From: Bacteroidales bacterium
GTDB taxonomy: Bacteria > Bacteroidota > Bacteroidia > Bacteroidales > UBA932
Reading direction: 5' to 3'
Length of the DNA stretch: 64,000 nucleotides
NCBI GenBank assembly: GCA_017452265.1
Contig: JAFTMS010000018.1
Coordinates: 62,001 to 126,000 of the forward strand
A model generated the notes under the pieces. The model was not told the DNA's origin. It worked only from the letters and a program-made list of their open reading frames with translations, and did no database searches. A program made the position numbers and the translations under genes. Below are positions 22,417-36,551 of this stretch, in pieces. Position 1 is the stretch's first letter; the number at the start of each line of letters is the position of its first letter.

Positions 22417-23343
22417 TCATTTATTGTTGATGATGACGTCGAGTTTCGGATAAGGGAACTGTATGCCCTTATCCGGCAGCTCCTTGTATATCCTTTCATT
22501 CATGTCGTAGCACACGCTCCAGTAATCTTCAGCCTTCACCCATGCCCTCATGACGAAAGATATTCCGTTGTCGTCCAGGCTTTTCAAGGCAACAAACGGA
22601 AGAGCCGGTGCCTTTTCGTCCTGAATGATGCGCTTGTCGTCGTACATGAGGCTCATCAGAAGCTCCTTTGTGTCCTCCACGGATGCTCCATACTCTACAT
22701 TGATGGTCCAGTCAACCCTGCGTAAAGGGTTCTGTGAGAAATTATTGATTATCTCGTTCGAAAGTATTCCATTAGGTATGATTATACACCTGTTATCCAC
22801 TGTCGTCAGTTTCGTACTCACGATATTGATTTCGCTGACAGTGCCTTCAAAGCCCTGGGAGGCTATATAGTCTCCGGCCTTGAAAGGTCTGAAGACGAGC
22901 AGCATTATTCCTCCAGCAAAATTCTGTACTGTTCCGTTGAGAGCCATACCGACAGCCAGACCTCCACCTGTAAGCAGTGCTGCAAGTGATGAGGTGTCAA
23001 CCCCTAAGGTTCCGATTGTTACAAGTATGAGCACTATGGTCAGCGCTATGCTCACAAGGCTCTGGACGAAGGATGCTATCGCCGCATCGGTGTCCTTCTT
23101 GACGAAGAACCGTGTGAGCATTCCCTTGAACTTCCTTATGATCCATGCACCGATGAAATAGATGATGAACGCCGCAAGCACCTTAAGGCCGAAAATGATG
23201 GCCTTGTCCAGCAGTTCGCCCATCAGCTTATCAGCAGGTGTATTGGCTATGTGCTCCACGACGGAAGCGATTTCAGCCTGCACCTCGTTCAGGGAATCCG
23301 GCCTGGCCAGACTGTCAATCTTAGATATAGTGACAAGACTCAT
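22417..23343 (-). CDS. MscS-type mechanosensitive channel
   Basis: This 308-residue inner-membrane protein has three membrane helices (about 45-70, 88-110, 112-140), the last glycine/alanine-rich as in the MscS pore helix (LLTGGGLAVGMALNGTVQNF), then the beta domain with GDYIASQGFEGTVSEINIVSTKL. It releases small solutes on hypo-osmotic shock. The ATG at 23343 is preferred; the frame opens at a TTG at 23361 inside the preceding gene. It starts 1-2 bp after the cysteate synthase stop (TGATATG), so it is the last gene of the operon that begins near 30592. Confidence 0.9.
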   Translation of the reverse strand: MSLVTISKIDSLARPDSLNEVQAEIASVVEHIANTPADKLMGELLDKAIIFGLKVLAAFIIYFIGAWIIRKFKGMLTRFFVKKDTDAAIASFVQSLVSIALTIVLILVTIGTLGVDTSSLAALLTGGGLAVGMALNGTVQNFAGGIMLLVFRPFKAGDYIASQGFEGTVSEINIVSTKLTTVDNRCIIIPNGILSNEIINNFSQNPLRRVDWTINVEYGASVEDTKELLMSLMYDDKRIIQDEKAPALPFVALKSLDDNGISFVMRAWVKAEDYWSVCYDMNERIYKELPDKGIQFPYPKLDVIINNK

Positions 23344-23344
23344 A

Positions 23345-24631
23345 TCAGAAAAGCTTTTCAACCGCTGAAACTATGGTCTCTTCCGGGAGCGACGGATCGA
23401 GTACGAGATGCGGCTTTGCATATGTCATCTCATGCTCGGCCTTCGCCCTTTCTTCTCCACCGCCGGTGATGTTCAGCATGATGACTTCATCCTTCTTCAC
23501 TGCACCCTCATTCACTGCCATAGCAAGAGAGGCGACAGCAACAGCAGCAGCATTGTGGATGTCTATTCCTTCGATTTCACGGAATCTGTGCTTCCACTCC
23601 TGAAGCTCGCTGTTGCTGACCTTGTATATGTCTCCCGTCGCATCCTCCATAGCATCGAACAGGCCTCCTATGAGCGGATATGGCGGTTTTCTGTTCGAAA
23701 GCACCTTGGCGTCGATTTCGGCGGCGGCCTTGCGTGCCTCTTCCGGCGTCATTGGTACAAGATTGCGTGAGTGCTGTTTCCATGAATCATACATGATGGT
23801 GAACGGATCGTTCTGTGACGGATAAAGACGCATCTTGTGGGTTCCGTATCGACCATCCTCTATGAGGCGGAGGTTGTTCTCCCAAACGGCAATCGTACCG
23901 GTACCGCTGCCTATGGCCTGAAAATATGCATCAGGTATGCGTCCGATTGTCTCTACGGCAGAAAGAAGCGTCGTGCCCATTCCATCACGTCTTGCGATGT
24001 TCTTCGCTCCGCCTTCAGCCATGAAACGTGGAGATCTGCATACGGTATCGGCAAGAGCTATGGCGTCGCAGTAGTCTGAACCTTTGGGAGAGGCGATGAT
24101 CTTCACGCAGCCGTTCAGAGGCTTGCTGAACCAGAGGGCGTTGATGTTGTCCTCCGGAATCGATATCAGCACCGGTATTTTGTTGTCTGAGCACACTTTT
24201 GCAAATGCACGCGCTGTATTTCCGGCCGACGCCACTACCATGATCCTGTCGTTGTTTTCGGGAAGTCTTGCGCACACGGAATATGCTTCTGTTTCCTTGA
24301 ACGATGCCGTTTCCATGCGTGCTCCCTTCTCTGGCCAGTATCCGGAAAAGGTTATATAGAGATTCTCTAAGCCGAGATGAGCAGCAAGTGCTTCGGACTT
24401 GTATGTTACCGGTGCGCAGGAATTCTCCAGCGTCCTTCTTATCGGAAGCCAGTCCGCATATCTGTAGAATCCGTCAAGTTCGCTTCGGGGATTGAACTGC
24501 TTCATCTCATATTCGGCCCTGACGAGGCTCGGGCATTGACATGAAGGGTCTGCAAGAAGCCATCCTTCGTCTTCAAATCTCCTGCCGGTCGCGCAGCACA
24601 TGAGATTGTACTTTGTCGGTTTAAATGTCAT
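23345..24631 (-). CDS. Cysteate synthase (threonine synthase-like PLP enzyme)
   Basis: The 428-residue fold-type II PLP protein resembles archaeal cysteate synthase more than threonine synthase: a Cys-containing N-terminal segment (MCCATGRRF), FRYADWLP-like FYRYADWLP, SGYWPEKGARME before the PLP Lys112 in TASFKETEA, SAGNTARAF (135-143) and GGAKNIARRDGMG. Cysteate synthase makes L-cysteate from O-phosphoserine and sulfite. In Methanosarcina this feeds coenzyme M; in Bacteroidota cysteate feeds capnine-type sulfonolipids. Neither use is shown by the neighbours. The start at 24631 follows the HdrDE-like gene by 22 bp; an ATG at 24667 overlaps that gene. A plain threonine synthase is the alternative. 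Confidence 0.78.
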   Translation of the reverse strand: MTFKPTKYNLMCCATGRRFEDEGWLLADPSCQCPSLVRAEYEMKQFNPRSELDGFYRYADWLPIRRTLENSCAPVTYKSEALAAHLGLENLYITFSGYWPEKGARMETASFKETEAYSVCARLPENNDRIMVVASAGNTARAFAKVCSDNKIPVLISIPEDNINALWFSKPLNGCVKIIASPKGSDYCDAIALADTVCRSPRFMAEGGAKNIARRDGMGTTLLSAVETIGRIPDAYFQAIGSGTGTIAVWENNLRLIEDGRYGTHKMRLYPSQNDPFTIMYDSWKQHSRNLVPMTPEEARKAAAEIDAKVLSNRKPPYPLIGGLFDAMEDATGDIYKVSNSELQEWKHRFREIEGIDIHNAAAVAVASLAMAVNEGAVKKDEVIMLNITGGGEERAKAEHEMTYAKPHLVLDPSLPEETIVSAVEKLF

Positions 24632-24653
24632 AATATCAATTTTTACGTTAATT

Positions 24654-26501
24654 TCAACTGTTTTCATCCACTATCTGGGCAATGTCCTTCACCGGTCTGT
24701 CCGAATAGCGTCCGAATGTGCTCTGGCAAAGCGGACAGGCTGTGACTATCGCGTCCGGAGAACCGGCAGTGAGGTTTGCCAGAGCATTCTCTGTCAGAGG
24801 CTTACGCTTGTCAAAGCCAAGTGTGAGACTTCCGAGGCTTCCTCCACAGCAGACACTTTCCTTACCATTCTTTGCTGCTTCTACAAGTTCGCCGACGGCA
24901 CTTACGACATGGCGGGGCTGTTCATAAATGTTGCATCCGCGCCCGAGTTCACAAGGGTCATGGTACACATATCTTGTATCTGAACGTGAAAGATTCAGCC
25001 TCCCTTCAGAAACAAGACGGTCAATGTATTCTGTATGGTGCAGCACTTCAACTCCTTCAAGACTGTACCGCTCCTTGAAGATACGGTAGCATATCGGACA
25101 ACTTAGAAGGAGCATGTCCGCACCTGACGTCTTTATTATCTCAGTATTCTTTTCAGCCATCTGCTTTGCCTGCTCCAATCTTCCAGCCATCCACATAGGC
25201 CTTCCGCAGCAGATTCCTCCTTCTTCATCCATGAATCTCCAGTCCACGCCCGATTTGTTCAATATAGAGACCATGGATTTCCTGATTGAAGGAGTCAAAG
25301 ACGTCATGCATCCTGCGAAATATAAGACTTTCTTATTTTCAGTATATGAAACATTTTTGTTTGCAGTATTAACAAAAATGTTATTAGTGTTTATGAGGCT
25401 ATTTACATCAATTTTCGAATAATCCGGACTGAGATTATACTTGATCTGCGTACGCTGTGCAATCCTCAGCTTGTCTCCTTCCACGCCCACCTGACATACC
25501 GCAGAACATTTGCCGCAAAGAAGGCACTTTTCACTGATTTCGTTGATCCGCCTTTGGTTGCCTCGCTTGAGCTGCCGGTTGAGATACACGGTCGCATCCT
25601 TGTTGTTGGCCTTGACCGCACCCATAGGGCAGGCGTCTATGCATACGCCGCATCCGGGACAGGTATGGACATATAGGCGTGATACTCCTTTGCGTGAATG
25701 CGTGATCAGGATGCCGGCATTGCGCATCGGGATGAGAAGTATTTCGGCCGGTATGTGCATATACCGGCTGAAAGGAAGTATGCACATGAAGGTTCCAAGC
25801 GTAAGTGAATATGCCCACCATGTCGGAAGCATGTTCATTTCACTGCCTAAAAACGAATGCAGCACGTGATTGAGTGACATCGTGAGGAATGAACCTCCGC
25901 TTATGTCAGCTGTAAAGCCTTCTGCAAGAAGTCTCAGCGGAAATATCAGCCAAAGTGAATACAGCCCGATTCTGTCGGTAAAGCTCAGTCTTGTCGTCCT
26001 TCTCATTCCGAATGCTCTTGAACGCACTCTCTTGACAAGCGCAAGCAGGATTCCGCTCAGAATTATCAAAAGGAAGAAGTCCATAAGAAAGAAGAAGAAC
26101 GAGCCTTGCATCGTATTGTCGTTCACTGCCACGAAGTATCGGAAGAAGATCGGATACCACAGCTTGTGTATGCGGTCTGGAGTGTAAAGGAACACCTCGA
26201 TGTGCCCGAGGAGTATTATCATGAACCAGCCGAAGGCTATGCTGGAGTGCATGTAACCCAGAAGCTTGTTGCGCTTCCATAGCTTTACATGGAACAGGCA
26301 GTCGCAGAACCAGTCCCTGACATTTTGGGCCATTATCTTCGGATTGATGAGAGAAAGGAAGAACTTCTTCTTGTCGGAGGCCGGAAGCTCCAGAATTACC
26401 CTCACGGCACCGATGGCGCAGCAGGACAACACGAAAATCATCCCTATCATGAAGGGAAGGACGAAATTGTTGTAGCCGGAAAGATGCGTCACATTATTCA
26501 T
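24654..26501 (-). CDS. Membrane HdrE-ferredoxin-HdrD fusion (DsrMK-like)
   Basis: The 615-residue protein joins three parts. Residues 1-260 have about five membrane helices (12-36, 86-106, 134-158, 178-196, 226-246) with conserved histidines, as in HdrE/NarI-type cytochrome b subunits. Residues 281-336 bind two [4Fe-4S] clusters (C281-C284-C287-C291 and C326-C329-C332-C336). Residues 392-600 hold two complete CCG domains (C398, CC431-432, C468xxC471; C517, CC551-552, C589xxC592), the HdrD/DsrK catalytic module. This predicts a menaquinol- or menaquinone-linked thiol/disulfide oxidoreductase facing the cytoplasm. The ATG at 26501 overlaps the upstream gene by four bases. The substrate is unknown. 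Confidence 0.85.
   Translation of the reverse strand: MNNVTHLSGYNNFVLPFMIGMIFVLSCCAIGAVRVILELPASDKKKFFLSLINPKIMAQNVRDWFCDCLFHVKLWKRNKLLGYMHSSIAFGWFMIILLGHIEVFLYTPDRIHKLWYPIFFRYFVAVNDNTMQGSFFFFLMDFFLLIILSGILLALVKRVRSRAFGMRRTTRLSFTDRIGLYSLWLIFPLRLLAEGFTADISGGSFLTMSLNHVLHSFLGSEMNMLPTWWAYSLTLGTFMCILPFSRYMHIPAEILLIPMRNAGILITHSRKGVSRLYVHTCPGCGVCIDACPMGAVKANNKDATVYLNRQLKRGNQRRINEISEKCLLCGKCSAVCQVGVEGDKLRIAQRTQIKYNLSPDYSKIDVNSLINTNNIFVNTANKNVSYTENKKVLYFAGCMTSLTPSIRKSMVSILNKSGVDWRFMDEEGGICCGRPMWMAGRLEQAKQMAEKNTEIIKTSGADMLLLSCPICYRIFKERYSLEGVEVLHHTEYIDRLVSEGRLNLSRSDTRYVYHDPCELGRGCNIYEQPRHVVSAVGELVEAAKNGKESVCCGGSLGSLTLGFDKRKPLTENALANLTAGSPDAIVTACPLCQSTFGRYSDRPVKDIAQIVDENS
25369..25382. repeat. 14-bp palindrome inside the HdrDE-like gene
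   Basis: This third copy of TAACAAAAATGTTA lies in the AT-rich linker codons (N-N-I-F-V-N) between the ferredoxin and CCG parts. A partial inverted copy, AAACATTTTTGTTT, lies just beside it. Confidence 0.5.
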
Positions 26502-26836
26502 ATGCTTTCCTCCTTTCCGTAAATCCTGCTTATGGACAGGATGAGATGTCTCGTGTTTATGCCCCGAGGGCACACCATCAGGCATTTTCCGCAAAGCATG
26601 CATGACGACATCATTGCATATGCCTCCTTTTCCCGTCCCTGCTGCAGGCACAGCAGTACCTTGCGTACGCTCATGCCGGAAAATTCCGATGCGCTGCATG
26701 TAGCGCTGCAGGAGCCGCAGGCCATGCACTTGGACGCATCCGGTTCAAGAGCGCAAAGCTTCTTGAAACGGTTTCTGTCGACCTTGTCCAGATCTATGGT
26801 CGAACTCGGCGATATCCTGAATCCGAACATGCTCAT
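26498..26836 (-). CDS. HdrC-like ferredoxin, small
   Basis: The 112-residue protein has two [4Fe-4S] motifs, C37-C40-C43-C47 (CMACGSCSATC) and C79-C82-C85-C89 (CMLCGKCLMVC), separated by a helical stretch, as in HdrC/GlpC N-terminal parts. It probably shuttles electrons between the HdrA-like flavoprotein and the membrane subunit. Its stop overlaps the HdrDE-like start (ATGA), and its own start overlaps the end of the HdrA-like gene by four bases, which implies a fixed stoichiometry in a complex. Confidence 0.85.
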   Translation of the reverse strand: MSMFGFRISPSSTIDLDKVDRNRFKKLCALEPDASKCMACGSCSATCSASEFSGMSVRKVLLCLQQGREKEAYAMMSSCMLCGKCLMVCPRGINTRHLILSISRIYGKEESI

Positions 26837-27852
26837 CTGCGTGAAATTATCGAGTTGTGGATTTCAAGTACGGCAGAGCGTGCCTCTGCGAGCGTCTCAG
26901 GCACAGTCTTCGGCCCAGTACATGCTCCGGCGTAGAAGATGCCGTTCTTAGGTGAGACTGTGTTGCGTGACACATTGTCCGTGCTTCTGAGGAAGCCGTC
27001 GGAATCTATCGGAAGCGACATCATGCCGGCAACCCTCGTGCTGTCCGGATTGCATACCATTCCTGACATGAGCACCAGGAGGTCAAGAGTGACCTTCATC
27101 GGCCTGCCTGCAAGCGTATCCTCTGCCTTTACAATCACTTTTCCGTCTATATTTTCGCTTACTTCGGACACGCGGCCTCGTATGAAGTGGATTCCGCAGT
27201 CGCGCTGTGCCTTTATATAGAAGTCCTCGAACTTCTTTCCGAAAAGCCTCAGATCCATGTAGAAGCAGTATATTTCCGCATCGGGGAATTTTTCCTTGAG
27301 CTCGATTGCCTGCTTTATGGCTGTGATGCAGCATACCTTGGAACATTGCGTATTGCGTGCCTTTTCATCACGTGAGCCGACGCAGTGGACGAATCCTACT
27401 GCCTTCATTGCTGAATTATCGATACGGCTGTCCTTGGAAGTGTTAAACCACTTCTCAAGGTCTTGGTTTGTAATTACTTGATTGTAAACCCCATATCCGT
27501 ATTCTTCCTTTTTTGCGGCATCGAAAAGTCTGAATCCCGTCGTGAAAAGAATATAGCGTGAGGTGATTGAAATTCCGTTGGACAGCATGATGTTGTATCT
27601 GTCCTTAAGTCTGTTGATGAAGGATATTTCCGTATGAAGGAATATGTTGGCATCCTTGCTTGAGGAGACAAGTTCGTCAACGATATCCTTTGCCGGCTTC
27701 ATGTCCGGAAACAGCTTGTGCCAATCCGCGACATGACCGCCCAGATGATCGCTCTTCTCTATGACAATAGGGGAATGACCAAGCGCCAGAAGCTGTCTTG
27801 CTGCTTCCAGTCCGGCAATACCGCCACCAATAATTACAACTATCTCATTCAT
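26833..27852 (-). CDS. HdrA/QmoA-like FAD oxidoreductase
   Basis: This 339-residue flavoprotein has a Rossmann FAD motif VIIGGGIAGLEAA (about 6-18), the HdrA-type motif FVHCVGSRDEKARNTQCSKVCC (split: VHCVGSRD and QCSKVCCITAIKQA) and a C-terminal FAD block FYAGACTGPKTVPETLAEA. HdrA proteins are usually about 650 residues with extra ferredoxin domains; this one has only the flavin core, like QmoA. In Qmo/Hdr complexes this subunit passes or bifurcates electrons. The separate ferredoxin gene next door may replace the missing domains. Confidence 0.85.
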   Translation of the reverse strand: MNEIVVIIGGGIAGLEAARQLLALGHSPIVIEKSDHLGGHVADWHKLFPDMKPAKDIVDELVSSSKDANIFLHTEISFINRLKDRYNIMLSNGISITSRYILFTTGFRLFDAAKKEEYGYGVYNQVITNQDLEKWFNTSKDSRIDNSAMKAVGFVHCVGSRDEKARNTQCSKVCCITAIKQAIELKEKFPDAEIYCFYMDLRLFGKKFEDFYIKAQRDCGIHFIRGRVSEVSENIDGKVIVKAEDTLAGRPMKVTLDLLVLMSGMVCNPDSTRVAGMMSLPIDSDGFLRSTDNVSRNTVSPKNGIFYAGACTGPKTVPETLAEARSAVLEIHNSIISRR

Positions 27853-27862
27853 AAAAATTCAT

Positions 27863-28933
27863 CTAATAACATTTGAGATTTTGCGGAAGGCCCGGTCTCA
27901 TAATTTCCTTCCTGTCCAGACCTTTGTATTTGTCTTCCGGGACATACGGTATGCCTATCTTGTCGAGAAGTGGCTCTACTGCTACCTGATGCAGCTGCAG
28001 ACCGAGATCCCAAGGGTCGTATCCGAGCACCAGACCTGCGACCTCCTCATAGGTGAACACTGGGATTCCATATCCGTTCTGACCGTAGGTCTTGCCTTCG
28101 GTTTCTGCTATTACATACTGCCATCTGTCAAGGAAATACGGACAGCCCGGGCAGTTTGTTATGATCATGTCCGGCCTGTAGGGTTCCATGGATTCGAATT
28201 TCTTGTATGTGTTTGATACCGAGTACCCTCTGTTGGCCTTTATGTGATACTGACGGAAGCCGTATCCGCAGCAGTGCCGTCTTTCCGGATAATCTATCAC
28301 GTTTCCGCCCCATGCTTCCACCATGCCGGCAAGCACATACGGATATTCCGCTCCTCCTATTCCTTTTGACGGAAACATCTTGGCATAGTGGCATCCTATG
28401 TGTTCGACAACCCGTAACGGCTCTCCAGTCTCTTTGTTGACAAGGTGGTGCACGGCTTTTTCTGCAATTTCGTTGCGGTACTTGAATATGAGGTCGCTTG
28501 TATGGGCAAGATATTTCGGCTTCCTGAACTCCTTGCGGCATGCCTTCCACAGCAGTTCCCTTATCCGTGTCTCAAGTTCCGGGAATTCATGCCATGTCTC
28601 GAGTATCTCGGTATAATTTCCGAATGAAGTTATGCATGATGCGACATAGTTCTCGTATCCGGCCTCCGTCATTAGGGCGAACTGCCTTGCAACAATGGTC
28701 ATGGCCGTTTCCTGCGGAATCGTGTCGCAATGGTATGCGATGCCGCCGCATGTCGTATGATGTTCTGTCTCATGGAAATCCCTTCCGAGAACATTTCTGC
28801 ATATTTCAAGAAACATCCTTTCCGACCCCGGAAAGAAGTTCTGCCTTATGCAGCTTCGGACATAATACCAGTGGTCGTCTGGAATCTCCTTCTGATAGTC
28901 CGACCAGATCTTCTGTTTGCCTTGGTAAATCAT
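27863..28933 (-). CDS. HdrB-like CCG-domain protein
   Basis: The 356-residue protein has a complete C-terminal CCG domain (C181, CC221-222 in RRHCCGYGF, C261xxC264 in NCPGCPYF), the site of the non-cubane [4Fe-4S] cluster in HdrB. The N-terminal CCG domain is degenerate: TCGG (61-64) has lost one of the paired cysteines and C100 lacks its CxxC partner. It therefore probably binds one catalytic cluster instead of two. The HdrC-like stop overlaps its start by four bases. It is a soluble partner of the HdrC- and HdrA-like proteins. Confidence 0.84.
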   Translation of the reverse strand: MIYQGKQKIWSDYQKEIPDDHWYYVRSCIRQNFFPGSERMFLEICRNVLGRDFHETEHHTTCGGIAYHCDTIPQETAMTIVARQFALMTEAGYENYVASCITSFGNYTEILETWHEFPELETRIRELLWKACRKEFRKPKYLAHTSDLIFKYRNEIAEKAVHHLVNKETGEPLRVVEHIGCHYAKMFPSKGIGGAEYPYVLAGMVEAWGGNVIDYPERRHCCGYGFRQYHIKANRGYSVSNTYKKFESMEPYRPDMIITNCPGCPYFLDRWQYVIAETEGKTYGQNGYGIPVFTYEEVAGLVLGYDPWDLGLQLHQVAVEPLLDKIGIPYVPEDKYKGLDRKEIMRPGLPQNLKCY

Positions 28934-29631
28934 AATCCGTCATTGAAATGATTGTCTGAACATTGTTCGAATGTGTGTCTGAAGTATTCCTCCATTGTCA
29001 TCCCCATCTCCTTTGCCTTCTCCTGTGAACATTTCTCCACTGTCCCGATCCTTTCCGTCGCTCCGGTCACGTCAAAGATGCTTTTCAGTTCATCAAGCGA
29101 TTCCTGCGGAATCTTTCTGAGAATTCCCGGGCCTTCGCCCATGTAATTGGCTCCCAATCTTGCCAGACTGTCCTTGAGATGCTCGAAGTGCCATTTCCAT
29201 ACAGGCCCTGATTCCGTGTGGTCCTCCCAGCTGAATGTTTCCGGATGAATGCAGTAGCCGTATTTCAATATGTTTCCTGTCAAGAGCTTGGTGAGGGGGT
29301 AGAGCTGGCGTCCCTTTTCCGATTCCGTGAAATATCCGAGGCTGGCAGAGAGATTCCTCAGTGCCATGATTACGAGGCCAGGGCCATTTTTGCGCGGACA
29401 TCTTGTAACGCACGACATGCACTCGCCGCAGTACCAGATGGTGTCGCTTTTGAGCAGGTTCTCTATTTCCTCTTCGTCGCCGCGCTGGACTATGTCCACG
29501 ATCTTGCGCGGATCGTACCTGTAGAACTCTGCAGCAGGGCATATTGCTGTGCAGGTCCCGCAGTTGATGCAGGTCTTCAGACCTTCCTTTACGCGATAGT
29601 CCTCGCGAAGCATGTCATAAAGCTTTCCCAT
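28930..29631 (-). CDS. HdrC-like iron-sulfur protein
   Basis: The 233-residue protein has two [4Fe-4S] motifs near the N-terminus, C21-C24-C27-C31 (CINCGTCTAIC) and C68-C71-C74-C78 (CGECMSCVTRC), each followed by a proline, as in HdrC. A C-terminal extension of about 140 residues is unusual for HdrC (typically about 180-190 in all) and ends in an acidic helix. It overlaps the HdrB-like gene by four bases and starts 4 bp after the exchanger stop. Confidence 0.85.
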   Translation of the reverse strand: MGKLYDMLREDYRVKEGLKTCINCGTCTAICPAAEFYRYDPRKIVDIVQRGDEEEIENLLKSDTIWYCGECMSCVTRCPRKNGPGLVIMALRNLSASLGYFTESEKGRQLYPLTKLLTGNILKYGYCIHPETFSWEDHTESGPVWKWHFEHLKDSLARLGANYMGEGPGILRKIPQESLDELKSIFDVTGATERIGTVEKCSQEKAKEMGMTMEEYFRHTFEQCSDNHFNDGL

Positions 29632-29635
29632 TGTG

Positions 29636-30592
29636 TCATAGATTTGCTATGAGATACCACATATAGCCGGCTTCCATAAGCAGAAGCAGAACACCTTCCA
29701 TACGGTCGAGCTGTCTCTTCTTGAACATATATGCGCTGGCAAGGATGAAGACCGAGCACAGGAGTACAGCACCGAGGTCGACTGTCGTCATACCGCTGAA
29801 GGACAGCGGATTGATGAGGGCTGCACCTCCGAGTATCAGCAGGATGTTCGAGATGTTGGAGCCGAGGATGTTTCCGAGAGCCAGCTGTCCGCGTCCCTTG
29901 AGGGCGGCTACAACGCATGTCGCAAGTTCAGGCATCGATGTTCCGGCCGCCATGACCGTGATTGCTATGAACTTGTCGGAAACACCGAACATTTTTGCAA
30001 GCTCGGTCGCCGAATTGACGAAAAGCCTTCCACCGAAGATCAGGGCGGCAAGTCCGGCGATAATCAGGATTATGGAGACCCCGAGGCCGTACTGCTTCAC
30101 ACCTTCCCCTTCTTCTTCGTCAGCTGAATCCGATTTGAACGAACTCCAGAGATACCATGCGAAGATGGCAAGCAGGATGATTCCGTCGATTCTGCTGAGC
30201 TGGTCTGTTCCCTTGCCGAAAAGTGTGAAGTTCATACCGAGGAGGATCAGCAGCAGCGTCACTATTATATTAAGAGGTATATCCTTCTTCAGGTTGCTTT
30301 TTGTGATCACAAGCGGAGATATCAGGGCAGTCACTCCGAGTATCAGCATTGTGTTGAAGATGTTGGAGCCTACGATGTTTCCGATTGCCATGTCTGCCTT
30401 TCCCTGAAATGACGAAAGGAAGCTCACTACCATTTCCGGAGTCGACGTACCTATGCCGACTATCGTCAGTCCGATTATGAATTCACTGAGGCCGAACTTC
30501 TTGGCGAGGCTGGACGAGCCGTCCACAAGCCAGTTGGCTCCGAAAAGTATGAGCAGGAGTCCTGCAAGCAGGATCAGTATCTGCAATGTCAT
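29636..30592 (-). CDS. CaCA-family Na+/Ca2+ exchanger (YrbG-like)
   Basis: The 318-residue membrane protein has ten helices and two alpha repeats: GIGTSTPEMVVSFLSSF with GNIVGSNIFN in the first half, and AAGTSMPELATCVVAAL with GNILGSNISN in the second. The acidic residues in the GTS-PE motifs bind the cation. It exchanges Ca2+ for Na+ or H+ across the inner membrane. It is the first gene of the Hdr-like operon (4-bp gap to the HdrC-like gene), an unexpected partner. A second paralogue is at 35547. Confidence 0.92.
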   Translation of the reverse strand: MTLQILILLAGLLLILFGANWLVDGSSSLAKKFGLSEFIIGLTIVGIGTSTPEMVVSFLSSFQGKADMAIGNIVGSNIFNTMLILGVTALISPLVITKSNLKKDIPLNIIVTLLLILLGMNFTLFGKGTDQLSRIDGIILLAIFAWYLWSSFKSDSADEEEGEGVKQYGLGVSIILIIAGLAALIFGGRLFVNSATELAKMFGVSDKFIAITVMAAGTSMPELATCVVAALKGRGQLALGNILGSNISNILLILGGAALINPLSFSGMTTVDLGAVLLCSVFILASAYMFKKRQLDRMEGVLLLLMEAGYMWYLIANL

Positions 30593-33686: not shown

Positions 33687-35450
33687 TTAAGAAACTTTCT
33701 GCTGGCTCTTGAGCAGAACCTGCGACACATTGATCATGAAGTCACCCATCTTCTCAAGCTCACTCACCACATCCATGTAATAAACGCTCGTCTGATAGTT
33801 CTTGCGCTCGTTCTCAATGCTTTCTATCTCCTCGTCACGGAGGTTGTTTCTCATCACATTAATCTGATCCTCAGCCGCATAAGCGTTGGCAATCTCATTA
33901 AGCCTGCCTTCTCCGGCAGCTGTCAGGTTCGCGATCATCACCGCATACGCATTGTCCACGAGATCCACAAAACCGTTGAGCTTCTTGACTGTTTCCGCAT
34001 CAAATGACTTCTTGTGGATGTTCCTGCGCGAAAGGATACGGCTGATTGATTCACCGGAATCTCCAAGCGACTCAAGCTCGCCGATGATCTTGTACATGGA
34101 CTTGATCTCCACCGAAGTCTTCTGGCTGATTTCACCTGCAGAAACAGCATTGAGGAATGTTGCGATCTCGTACTCTATACGGTCTGAAATCTCTTCATAC
34201 TTCACCAGCTTTGCACGCAGTTCCTCGAACTTGTCCGGATTCGTTTCATTGATGGCAGCCCTCACATAGCCGAGGCCGTTTCGTGAAATGTTCGCGAAAT
34301 GGATGATTTCAAGAGATGCCTGCTCTGTCGCCATCTCAGGTGTTGCAAGAGGACCAGCGCTGATGTACTTGAGTCTGAACGCCTCGTCCTCCTTGTTCTT
34401 TGATCCCTTGATCACGAAGCATACGATCTTCTCGATGACAGGGATGAACCATATGAGGATAAATGTATTTATGGTATTGAAGAGAGTGTGCAGCATAGAA
34501 AGGCCGTATAGGGCAGATGTCTGCGTAGCTGTCTGGATGACAGTTCCGTCAGCAGCCTTTTCCACAACCACAGCAAAATCGTCAGCGGCAGGATTCGGCA
34601 CACCGAAGACCGATGATGTGATGAATCCGATGAGCTTAAGGAAGTAAGGGAATGTTATAAGTGCCCATATCACACCGAAAACATTGAATACGGTGTGGGC
34701 GAGTGCCGCACGCTTTGCGGAAGTGTTTCCGACTGCCGCAGCAATGTTTGCCGTAATCGTTGTTCCGATGTTCTCACCGAGCACCATTGCACATGCCATG
34801 TCGAACCTGATCCAGCCCATGTTCAGCATGATGAGCGTAAGAGCCATCGTTGCACTTGAAGACTGAAGCACAAGCGTCAGTACAGTACCGAACACGAGGA
34901 ACATGAGCACAGAGCCGAAGCCGTGTCCCTGCCATCCCTGGATGAATGAAAGGACTTCAGGATTCTGGCCGAGATCCGGCACTGAGTTTTTCATCAGTGA
35001 AAGTCCGAGGAAAAGCAGCGAGAAGCCCACAATCAGCTCCGAAATGTTCCTGTTCTGGCTTTTCTTCGAAATCGAAAGAATGAATCCGAGGGCCATGAGA
35101 GGCACTGCGAGTATCGAGATGTCAGCCTTGAATCCGAGCCATGAAACGAGCCATGCCGTAACTGTCGTACCGATGTTCGCACCCATGATCACGCTGATGG
35201 CCTGGGCGAGGGTGAGAAGTCCGGCGTTCACGAAGCTGACCACCATGACCGTCGTGGCGCTTGAGGACTGTATCACCGAAGTGATTCCCAGACCCGTGAG
35301 TACGCCTTTGAACGGATTTGATGTCATTGAAGAAAGAAAGTTGCGAAGCTTGTCACCTGCCGCTTTCTGCAGACCTGAGCTCATGAGGTTCATTCCGTAG
35401 AGGAACATACCTAAGGCTCCAAGGAGAGTAAAAAGTTGTAATATACCCAT
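33687..35450 (-). CDS. Na+/phosphate cotransporter family protein with PhoU-like tail
   Basis: The 587-residue protein has about nine membrane helices in the N-terminal 370 residues, with the duplicated signature QSSSATTVMVVSF and QSSSATMALTLIM of the NptA/SLC34-type (YjbB) family, and a cytoplasmic C-terminal region of about 200 residues rich in helices, as in PhoU. The family couples Na+ flow to phosphate transport; E. coli YjbB exports phosphate. A possible -7 box (TATTTTTG, 35479-35486) lies before it. Confidence 0.92.
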   Translation of the reverse strand: MGILQLFTLLGALGMFLYGMNLMSSGLQKAAGDKLRNFLSSMTSNPFKGVLTGLGITSVIQSSSATTVMVVSFVNAGLLTLAQAISVIMGANIGTTVTAWLVSWLGFKADISILAVPLMALGFILSISKKSQNRNISELIVGFSLLFLGLSLMKNSVPDLGQNPEVLSFIQGWQGHGFGSVLMFLVFGTVLTLVLQSSSATMALTLIMLNMGWIRFDMACAMVLGENIGTTITANIAAAVGNTSAKRAALAHTVFNVFGVIWALITFPYFLKLIGFITSSVFGVPNPAADDFAVVVEKAADGTVIQTATQTSALYGLSMLHTLFNTINTFILIWFIPVIEKIVCFVIKGSKNKEDEAFRLKYISAGPLATPEMATEQASLEIIHFANISRNGLGYVRAAINETNPDKFEELRAKLVKYEEISDRIEYEIATFLNAVSAGEISQKTSVEIKSMYKIIGELESLGDSGESISRILSRRNIHKKSFDAETVKKLNGFVDLVDNAYAVMIANLTAAGEGRLNEIANAYAAEDQINVMRNNLRDEEIESIENERKNYQTSVYYMDVVSELEKMGDFMINVSQVLLKSQQKVS

Positions 35451-35546: not shown

Positions 35547-36551
35547 TCATGCCATCTGAGTGCTCAGAAGATACCATGTATATCCGACGAATCCGGCAAA
35601 CATCACGAGGCCTGCAAGCCTGTTGATTTTTCCACCTGCAACGAGCGCTGCCTTTCCGTTGTTACGCGATATGCTGAATCCAAGCAGAAGCGGAACCACG
35701 GCGGCAATGATCATCACGATGTAGTCCACGGATGTGATACCCGCTGATGTGAGCGGCATCACCTGTGAACTGAGACCGAGGATCCATGTGATGTTGAAGA
35801 TGTTGGAACCGACGATGTTTCCGAGCGCAAGCTGAGTGTTCTTCTTGAAGGCAGCAGCAAGGGATGCGGCGAGTTCCGGCAGGGAAGTGCCGCAGGCGAT
35901 GAGTGTCAGCGAGATGAATGCATCGTTCACGCCGAAAGACTTCGCGATGAGCACGGCATTGTCAATAAAGAAGTCGCAGCTTGTGATGAGCACCGCAAGA
36001 CCGCCGGTCACCTTGAAGATAGCCAGCCAGAGGGGAGTCTTGACTTTCTCTGCGGCTTCCTCCTGTTTCATGACCGGAGCGTTTGCGGACTTCTTTCTGT
36101 CACGATAGAACGAGTACCACATATAAAGTGCAAACATGCACAGGAGAACGATTCCGTCGATCCTGCCGATTGTTGCTGCGGTTCCGTTGAAGAAGTTGAG
36201 TGCCAGCACGGTAAGGAGAACCGATACGAAGATGCAGAACGGAATCTCGAACTTCATGTTGTTCCTGTCGATGGCGATAGGGAAGAATACGGCCGTCAGT
36301 CCGAGGATAGCCAAGACATTGAAGATGTTTGAGCCTACCACATTGCCTATAGCCACGTCAGCATTGCCCTGAAGTGCTCCTATGAAACTCACGACAAGCT
36401 CGGGCATGGATGTGCCTACACCCACGATGGCTGCACCGATCACAAAATCAGAAACCTTGTATTTTTTCGCTATCGAAACCGCTCCGGCCACGAGATAGTC
36501 CGCTCCGAATACGATTCCGACGAGCGATATCAAAAGGATTACGTATTCCAT
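35547..36551 (-). CDS. CaCA-family Na+/Ca2+ exchanger, second copy
   Basis: The 334-residue membrane protein has two alpha repeats, GVGTSMPELVVSFIGAL with GNVVGSNIFN and ACGTSLPELAASLAAAF with GNIVGSNIFN. It is clearly paralogous to the protein at 29636, but has a longer charged loop between the halves (DRKKSANAPVMKQEEAAEK). The ATG at 36551 shares one base with the stop codon of the upstream small membrane protein, so the two are coupled. Confidence 0.92.
   Translation of the reverse strand: MEYVILLISLVGIVFGADYLVAGAVSIAKKYKVSDFVIGAAIVGVGTSMPELVVSFIGALQGNADVAIGNVVGSNIFNVLAILGLTAVFFPIAIDRNNMKFEIPFCIFVSVLLTVLALNFFNGTAATIGRIDGIVLLCMFALYMWYSFYRDRKKSANAPVMKQEEAAEKVKTPLWLAIFKVTGGLAVLITSCDFFIDNAVLIAKSFGVNDAFISLTLIACGTSLPELAASLAAAFKKNTQLALGNIVGSNIFNITWILGLSSQVMPLTSAGITSVDYIVMIIAAVVPLLLGFSISRNNGKAALVAGGKINRLAGLVMFAGFVGYTWYLLSTQMA

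Follow-up and report, generated by a model that had tools for sequence, protein, structure and literature searches.

A heterodisulfide reductase-like gene unit adjoining cysteate synthase in Bacteroidales is linked to sulfonolipid genes and may supply sulfite

The stretch analyzed here (the window) comprises 64,000 nucleotides of a Bacteroidales genome (GenBank assembly GCA_017452265.1, contig JAFTMS010000018.1; 2.56 Mb in 45 contigs, 84.5% complete) and contains a run of heterodisulfide reductase (Hdr)-like genes that leads into a gene for cysteate synthase (CysS). The whole run was located at positions 22417–30592 of the minus strand. An earlier interpretation made from the letters alone, the sequence-only reading, had described an operon of seven genes while naming eight; the operon proved to be real, and all eight genes were found. 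Its core consists of six genes whose spacing or overlap does not exceed 14 bases. In order, they encode an HdrC-like protein with two [4Fe-4S] motifs (28930–29631; HdrC profiles scored best, PDB HdrC match with E = 8e-15), an HdrB-like protein (27863–28933; PF02754, 42.5 bits; methanogen HdrB, E = 4e-31), a short HdrA-like flavoprotein of the sHdrA type (26833–27852; 339 aa), a small HdrC2-like dicluster ferredoxin (26498–26836; 112 aa; Fer4 families and weak HdrC matches), a membrane HdrE–ferredoxin–HdrD fusion (HdrED, 24654–26501; 615 aa; PF02754 twice, 85 bits), and CysS (23345–24667). Counted from the gene preceding HdrC, which encodes a Na+/Ca2+ exchanger family protein (CaCA), the gaps down to HdrED are +4, −4, +10, −4, and −4 bases. 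The open frame of HdrED extends further upstream than the start at 26501, and the gap between HdrED and CysS is −14, or +22 if CysS begins at the ATG at 24631.

The last enzyme of the core run, which belongs to the pyridoxal phosphate (PLP) enzymes, was identified as CysS by TIGR03844 (476.8 bits against a cut-off of 324.9) and by its best PDB match, 9k3c, annotated "Cysteate synthase" (E = 2e-169, residues 14–440). Assignment to the threonine synthases was rejected by profile score, as the best such model reached 62.0 bits, and the identity given to this enzyme in the sequence-only reading was thus borne out. CysS requires sulfite, which it combines with O-phosphoserine to form cysteate.

The Hdr proteins are homologous to methanogen HdrABC and HdrDE subunits and include an HdrDE-like membrane module. 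In profile searches, however, HdrC, HdrB, and HdrA fell far below the methanogen equivalog cut-offs (77.4/350, 127/450, and 247.9/1100 bits, respectively) and are, judged by score, relatives of the methanogen subunits and not coenzyme M enzymes. They also differ in that HdrA is short and lacks the ferredoxin parts, one cluster motif of HdrB is degenerate, and the soluble and membrane modules lie in one operon. The closest full-length PDB match of HdrA was 6tjr (349-aa chain; residues 5–330, E = 1e-58), which we take to be the sHdrA of Hyphomicrobium, and its cluster motif C157/C170/C174/C175 (C-x12-C-x3-CC) was invariant in 16 aligned sequences. HdrB has a complete C-terminal CCG domain (C181, C221, C222, C261, C264) and a degenerate N-terminal one that retains C28, C62, and C100 only, a pattern of five and three cysteines found in all 18 aligned sequences. 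According to the sequence-only reading, a coenzyme M-like or cysteate-derived thiol might form a heterodisulfide that is reduced by the Hdr complex, an idea for which the adjacency of the Hdr fold and CysS speaks. The scores, the degraded HdrB motif, and the HdrA match to 6tjr speak against a coenzyme M-type heterodisulfide role, and CysS is explained by the use of cysteate in sulfonolipids, so that we regard this idea as exceedingly improbable. QmoABC was also rejected as the identity of these genes, with the HdrC-like protein reaching 51.7/300 bits for QmoC.

HdrED has an N-terminal part that is hydrophobic as judged by eye and carries four histidines (H71, H85, H100, H249) invariant in 16 sequences, and its two [4Fe-4S] motifs and two complete CCG domains were kept in 16/16 sequences. 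A distant PDB match was the iron-sulfur-binding reductase 9ojn (E = 3e-15). On its putative membrane part, histidines, clusters, and CCG domains, HdrED is classed as a membrane HdrDE/EtfD-like protein, and the membrane part together with two [4Fe-4S] clusters and two CCG domains in one chain is shared with mycobacterial EtfD/DsrMK-type proteins. In the passages on EtfD in PMC13083937, this protein is proposed to feed menaquinone; one of its clusters has a histidine for a bridging cysteine and is described as non-catalytic, and the second is of the linear [3Fe-4S] type. HdrED differs from EtfD, as described there, in keeping both second cysteines of the CX2C motifs, where EtfD has histidine and threonine, and no Etf partner genes were recognized.

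We compared the run across 99 genomes of the window's family (UBA932 in GTDB) and 295 genomes of its order, counting genomes outside the listed matches as absent. Family genomes were taken as HdrB-positive upon a strong match (weak matches in G319, G338, and G354 were left out); 41 carried strong HdrB, 46 CysS, and 35 both. Besides the window, 42 strong HdrB places were compared, leaving out a half gene (G365:C57). CysS directly followed HdrED in 29 of them (in two of these loci the contig begins within HdrB), indicating that the joining of Hdr and CysS is not due to chance. Among the other 13, CysS lay about 3.5 kb away in one, no adjoining CysS was seen in seven (one of which also had no recognized HdrED), two ended at a contig edge, and three held HdrC and HdrB only. 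The operon is intact in most close relatives, CysS being separated from it in a minority. A second set of 80 database-record loci with the closest HdrB, at least three of which are the same DNA as family-genome loci, came mostly from gut metagenome assemblies (9/80 were named Candidatus Cryptobacteroides). All five Hdr genes were present in 73/80 of these, and CysS followed HdrED in 43 of the 68 with room downstream. The gene order C1-B1-A was kept in the window, in most family loci, and in five loci outside the family (L316–L320).

The conservation of the operon does not extend to the order as a whole. CysS scored over its cut-off in 80/295 order genomes, and in the 79 other than the window genome it had Hdr genes within about 9 kb at 2/80 places, some of them on short contigs. 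Both of these places were in the window's family, and CysS stood separate at all 78 places outside it, which rules out CysS–Hdr linkage as an order-wide rule. The co-occurrence of CysS and HdrB across the order was weak (33/92 HdrB genomes vs. 47/203 others, p = 0.03), and therefore cysteate fatty acyltransferase (SulA/CFAT) was tested as the partner instead.

Genomes with a CFAT match of E below 1e-90 were taken as CFAT-positive; the order negatives comprised 34 genomes in which nothing matched and 52 whose matches, at about 1e-63 to 1e-75 and no better, were considered paralogues. The window genome carries CFAT (G000:C30:123518-124750; E = 4.7e-209). The acyltransferase encoded upstream of HdrC in related loci (L146, L153; see below) matched PDB entries 7u7h (E = 5e-162), presumably the Alistipes SulA, and 28eh, annotated "Cysteate-C-fatty acyltransferase" (E = 3e-161), best. 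SulA is described as the cysteate acyltransferase of A. finegoldii in PMC9304779. Co-occurrence with this enzyme had been set beforehand as a test of the sequence-only reading, and CFAT was found in all 41/41 strong-HdrB genomes and all 46/46 CysS genomes of the family, with strong HdrB in 0/44 of the family genomes lacking CFAT. Across the order, CFAT occurred in 86/92 HdrB genomes, or 37/38 when one genome per family was counted. Four of the six HdrB genomes without strong CFAT were 76–82% complete; the other two were 94% and 99% complete.

Physical linkage was also observed. In two loci (L146, L153), genes for a VOC-fold (glyoxalase-like) protein, CFAT, and a short-chain reductase (SDR) lie directly upstream of HdrC. 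Among the 65 database-record loci with upstream room, SDR directly preceded HdrC in 12 and CFAT plus SDR did so in 10, and CFAT, SDR, the Hdr unit, and CysS formed a single run in 10. By family membership only, the SDR is a candidate ketoreductase; in such relatives, the three enzyme types of the sulfonolipid pathway, CysS, SulA/CFAT, and 3-ketocapnine reductase (the last assigned at the level of the SDR family), share a single run with the Hdr genes. The VOC-fold protein (L146:13300-14379) heads the sulfonolipid run in several relatives, and a PDB search with it gave no match. Outside the family, three loci selected for CFAT and Hdr on one contig within 10 kb showed CFAT, an alternative PLP enzyme, and HdrC-B-A-Fd-ED (L319); CFAT, a TIGR03844-like frame of 108 bits, and then the Hdr unit (L318); and the Hdr unit followed by CFAT (L320). 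A general energy-metabolism Hdr module that lies near sulfonolipid genes incidentally would agree with the stand-alone five-gene units seen in two loci outside the family (L316, L317) and with the count of Hdr within 10 kb of CFAT, at least 5 of the 86 order genomes carrying both among the matches listed. Incidental placement is at odds with linkages in several families and with the presence of CFAT in nearly all genomes that carry HdrB, and we consider it quite unlikely. Together, these results make it very probable that the five-gene Hdr unit belongs to the sulfonolipid pathway.

TIGR03844 CysS was absent from 6/41 family HdrB genomes. In some family genomes and in L319, it is replaced by a different PLP enzyme that is nearest to threonine synthases and has a cysteine-rich N-terminus; this enzyme lies beside CFAT or Hdr in L175, L182, L228, and L319 and may be a cysteate synthase of a second type. 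Three of the six genomes had it beside CFAT (L175, L182, L228), it was not recognized beside CFAT in G299 and G300 (L229, L230), and the neighborhood in G370 was left out.

Few other sources of sulfite were recognized in these genomes. PF01507 had no match in the window genome and matched in 8/41 family HdrB genomes, one of which (G336) contained a strong CysH-like frame; CysH and CysD were told apart by frame length. Strong CysH-like proteins occurred in 4/99 family genomes, and siroheme sulfite reductase in 3/99 and in none of the 41 with HdrB. Because PF01507 and CysH-like frames and siroheme sulfite reductase are rare or absent there, the sulfite supply of family HdrB genomes is, as far as their recognizable genes go, otherwise unexplained. 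Across the order, adenylyl sulfate (APS) reductase (TIGR02055) was counted in 182 genomes after dropping a weak match in G111; it was over the curated cut-off in 158/295, and a stricter set left out 22 weaker matches. Among the 209 CFAT genomes, APS reductase was missing from 30 of the 86 with Hdr vs. 17 of the 123 without Hdr (p = 6e-4), and Hdr or APS reductase was present in 192/209 CFAT genomes vs. 22/86 others (79/88 vs. 11/31 when each family was represented by a single genome). That Hdr is commoner among CFAT genomes lacking APS reductase is as expected if it serves as a further source of sulfite, and of the options raised in the sequence-only reading, the supply of electrons or sulfite for sulfonolipid chemistry is the one favored by the comparative evidence.

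Alternatively, Hdr might serve a different redox reaction in the making or removal of sulfonolipids, such as lipid modification or electron balance, in place of sulfite supply. The persistence of the CFAT association in the six genomes without TIGR03844 CysS would fit such a step, as would the lack of a recognized alternative PLP enzyme beside CFAT in two of these six, the unexplained VOC-fold protein in the operon, and the absence of a trade-off between Hdr and APS reductase over all 295 genomes (p = 0.44). A lipid-modifying role, however, would not predict that Hdr is enriched in CFAT genomes without APS reductase, and half of the six do have the alternative PLP enzyme beside CFAT. We consider this explanation unlikely.

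The best explanation, which we hold with about even confidence, is that the Hdr unit is dedicated to the synthesis of sulfonolipids (capnine/sulfobacin) and supplies sulfite for CysS. There is a similarly balanced chance that this sulfite is formed by the oxidation of reduced sulfur. By gene order and HdrA type, the nearest characterized relative is the sHdr system, in which, according to PMC6067878 and PMC11582611, sHdr and LbpA oxidize protein-bound sulfane sulfur to sulfite; the defining genes given in the latter include Hyp and a separate C2-B2 or B3. The likeness to the system described there lies in the HdrC1-HdrB1-HdrA order, the short HdrA, the CCG-domain proteins, and the proposed sulfite product. 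In contrast to sHdr, the unit has no Hyp and no separate C2-B2 or B3, and the 112-aa ferredoxin and the membrane HdrE/D fusion follow HdrA. Moreover, no dedicated LbpA or Etf was seen, the second CCG protein is membrane-fused, and the unit, found in anaerobic gut bacteria, is associated with the synthesis of lipids.

We infer the following scheme. The sulfur source would be sulfane sulfur borne by a persulfide and derived ultimately from cysteine, or from sulfide or thiosulfate. It would be oxidized to sulfite in the cytoplasm by HdrB, at its only non-cubane iron-sulfur site that is complete, and the electrons would pass from HdrC to the FAD and cluster of HdrA, then to the small ferredoxin, the membrane HdrE/D fusion, and menaquinone. 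Direct delivery to menaquinone is proposed because there is no LbpA or Hyp, TusA is present in few Hdr genomes, and the second CCG protein is membrane-fused. The sulfite would be used at once by CysS with O-phosphoserine, and the cysteate would be converted by SulA/CFAT and then the ketoreductase into the sulfonolipid base. The reaction might instead run reductively, with quinol or another donor cleaving thiosulfate or an S-sulfo thiol (R-S-SO3) at HdrB to give thiol or sulfide and sulfite for CysS. The genomic links to CysS and CFAT fit this direction equally, the CCG domain of HdrB is complete as in disulfide-cleaving Hdr, and SulP or FNT transporter genes adjoin CysS in some relatives; against these stand the redox potentials, by which menaquinol is a weak donor for such a reduction, and the HdrA type, which is that of the oxidative system. 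We therefore judge reductive sulfite release improbable.

A number of observations weigh against sulfite supply by an oxidative Hdr unit. Judged by the redox potentials, forming sulfite from reduced sulfur with menaquinone as the oxidant lies close to equilibrium. Among the places listed, no PF01597 match for LbpA was found near HdrB in the family; GcvH was present in 92/99 family genomes irrespective of Hdr, and the Hdr-positive genomes G332, G357, and G366 had none. TusA was found in 8/41 Hdr genomes, and the distribution does not support LbpA or TusA as specific partners. The trade-off with APS reductase was weaker when one genome per family was counted (missing from 14/37 with Hdr vs. 9/51 without; p = 0.049) and with the stricter set (p = 0.004 over all CFAT genomes and 0.12 when counted by family), it was not significant within CysS-positive genomes (p = 0.26), and, as stated above, it was absent over all 295 genomes. 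CFAT-less genomes leaned the opposite way, with APS reductase in 4/6 with Hdr vs. 16/80 without. Since 56/86 genomes with CFAT and Hdr also carry APS reductase, the two are not exclusive. CFAT occurs without Hdr in 123 order genomes, 17 of which also lack APS reductase, and 14 family genomes have CFAT but no strong HdrB and no strong CysH-like frame, so that another sulfite source must exist in the latter. Two fairly complete genomes (G022, G227) have HdrB without strong CFAT, related genomes are not independent in the co-occurrence statistics, and the HdrB counts include an HdrC–HdrB-only paralogue (L180, L181, L183).

Two genomes of one genus showed a different arrangement around CysS: in L224 (scanned) and L225 (by like sequence), a gene for an FNT-family (formate/nitrite) channel between MarR and CysS replaces the Hdr unit, and this channel might import sulfite. 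In L222, genes for a cysteine desulfurase (TIGR01977), a TmcB/HmcF/DsrK-like protein, and a KamA-like radical SAM protein run into CysS and SulP. We count these arrangements in favor of sulfite supply by the Hdr unit.

At L180, L181, and L183, an HdrC–HdrB pair occurs without HdrA or HdrED. A CoA-disulfide-reductase-like gene adjoins two of the three pairs, NafY/DUF134-like genes lie near all three, and Mrp-like genes near two; the pair seems to be a paralogue that serves a different reaction of persulfides or disulfides. L226 (genome G321) holds MarR-HdrA-HdrED-CysS without HdrC–HdrB. The only HdrB match in this genome is the L183 paralogue, and the C–B half may therefore be shared between systems in G321.

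The genes flanking the core run are lineage-specific neighbors. The first gene of the whole run encodes the CaCA protein (29636–30592, minus strand; TIGR00367, 237 bits, over the cut-off; PF01699), and the last encodes an MscS-type channel (22417–23361, minus strand; PF00924, PF21082), separated from CysS by −17 bases, or by +1 if its start is the ATG at 23343. CaCA was present in 9/80 database-record loci and MscS followed CysS in 26/80, some of these loci being cut short. Not far away in the window, a second CaCA-like exchanger gene (35547–36551) adjoins a Na/Pi-cotransporter-like gene (33687–35450).

The sulfonolipids of gut Bacteroidales are discussed with respect to inflammation in PMC11211663. 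In the open-access literature searched, the origin of the sulfite used by CysS in anaerobes was not stated, and among the papers listed none was found that joins the sulfonolipid pathway with a heterodisulfide reductase or redox complex. The Hdr unit is a concrete candidate for this sulfite source, and its relation to APS reductase can be put to the test. Our fullest proposal, to which we give somewhat less than even weight, is that anaerobic gut Bacteroidales carry out an anabolic, lipoate-free sulfur oxidation, in which an sHdr-like complex joined to a membrane quinone reductase would oxidize sulfur from cysteine to the sulfite needed for the head groups of sulfonolipids, replacing assimilatory sulfate reduction as the origin of sulfite and passing the electrons to menaquinone. 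The chemistry of sHdr, known from lithotrophic energy metabolism, would thereby reach into the synthesis of lipids, in a form that seems to work without a lipoate protein.

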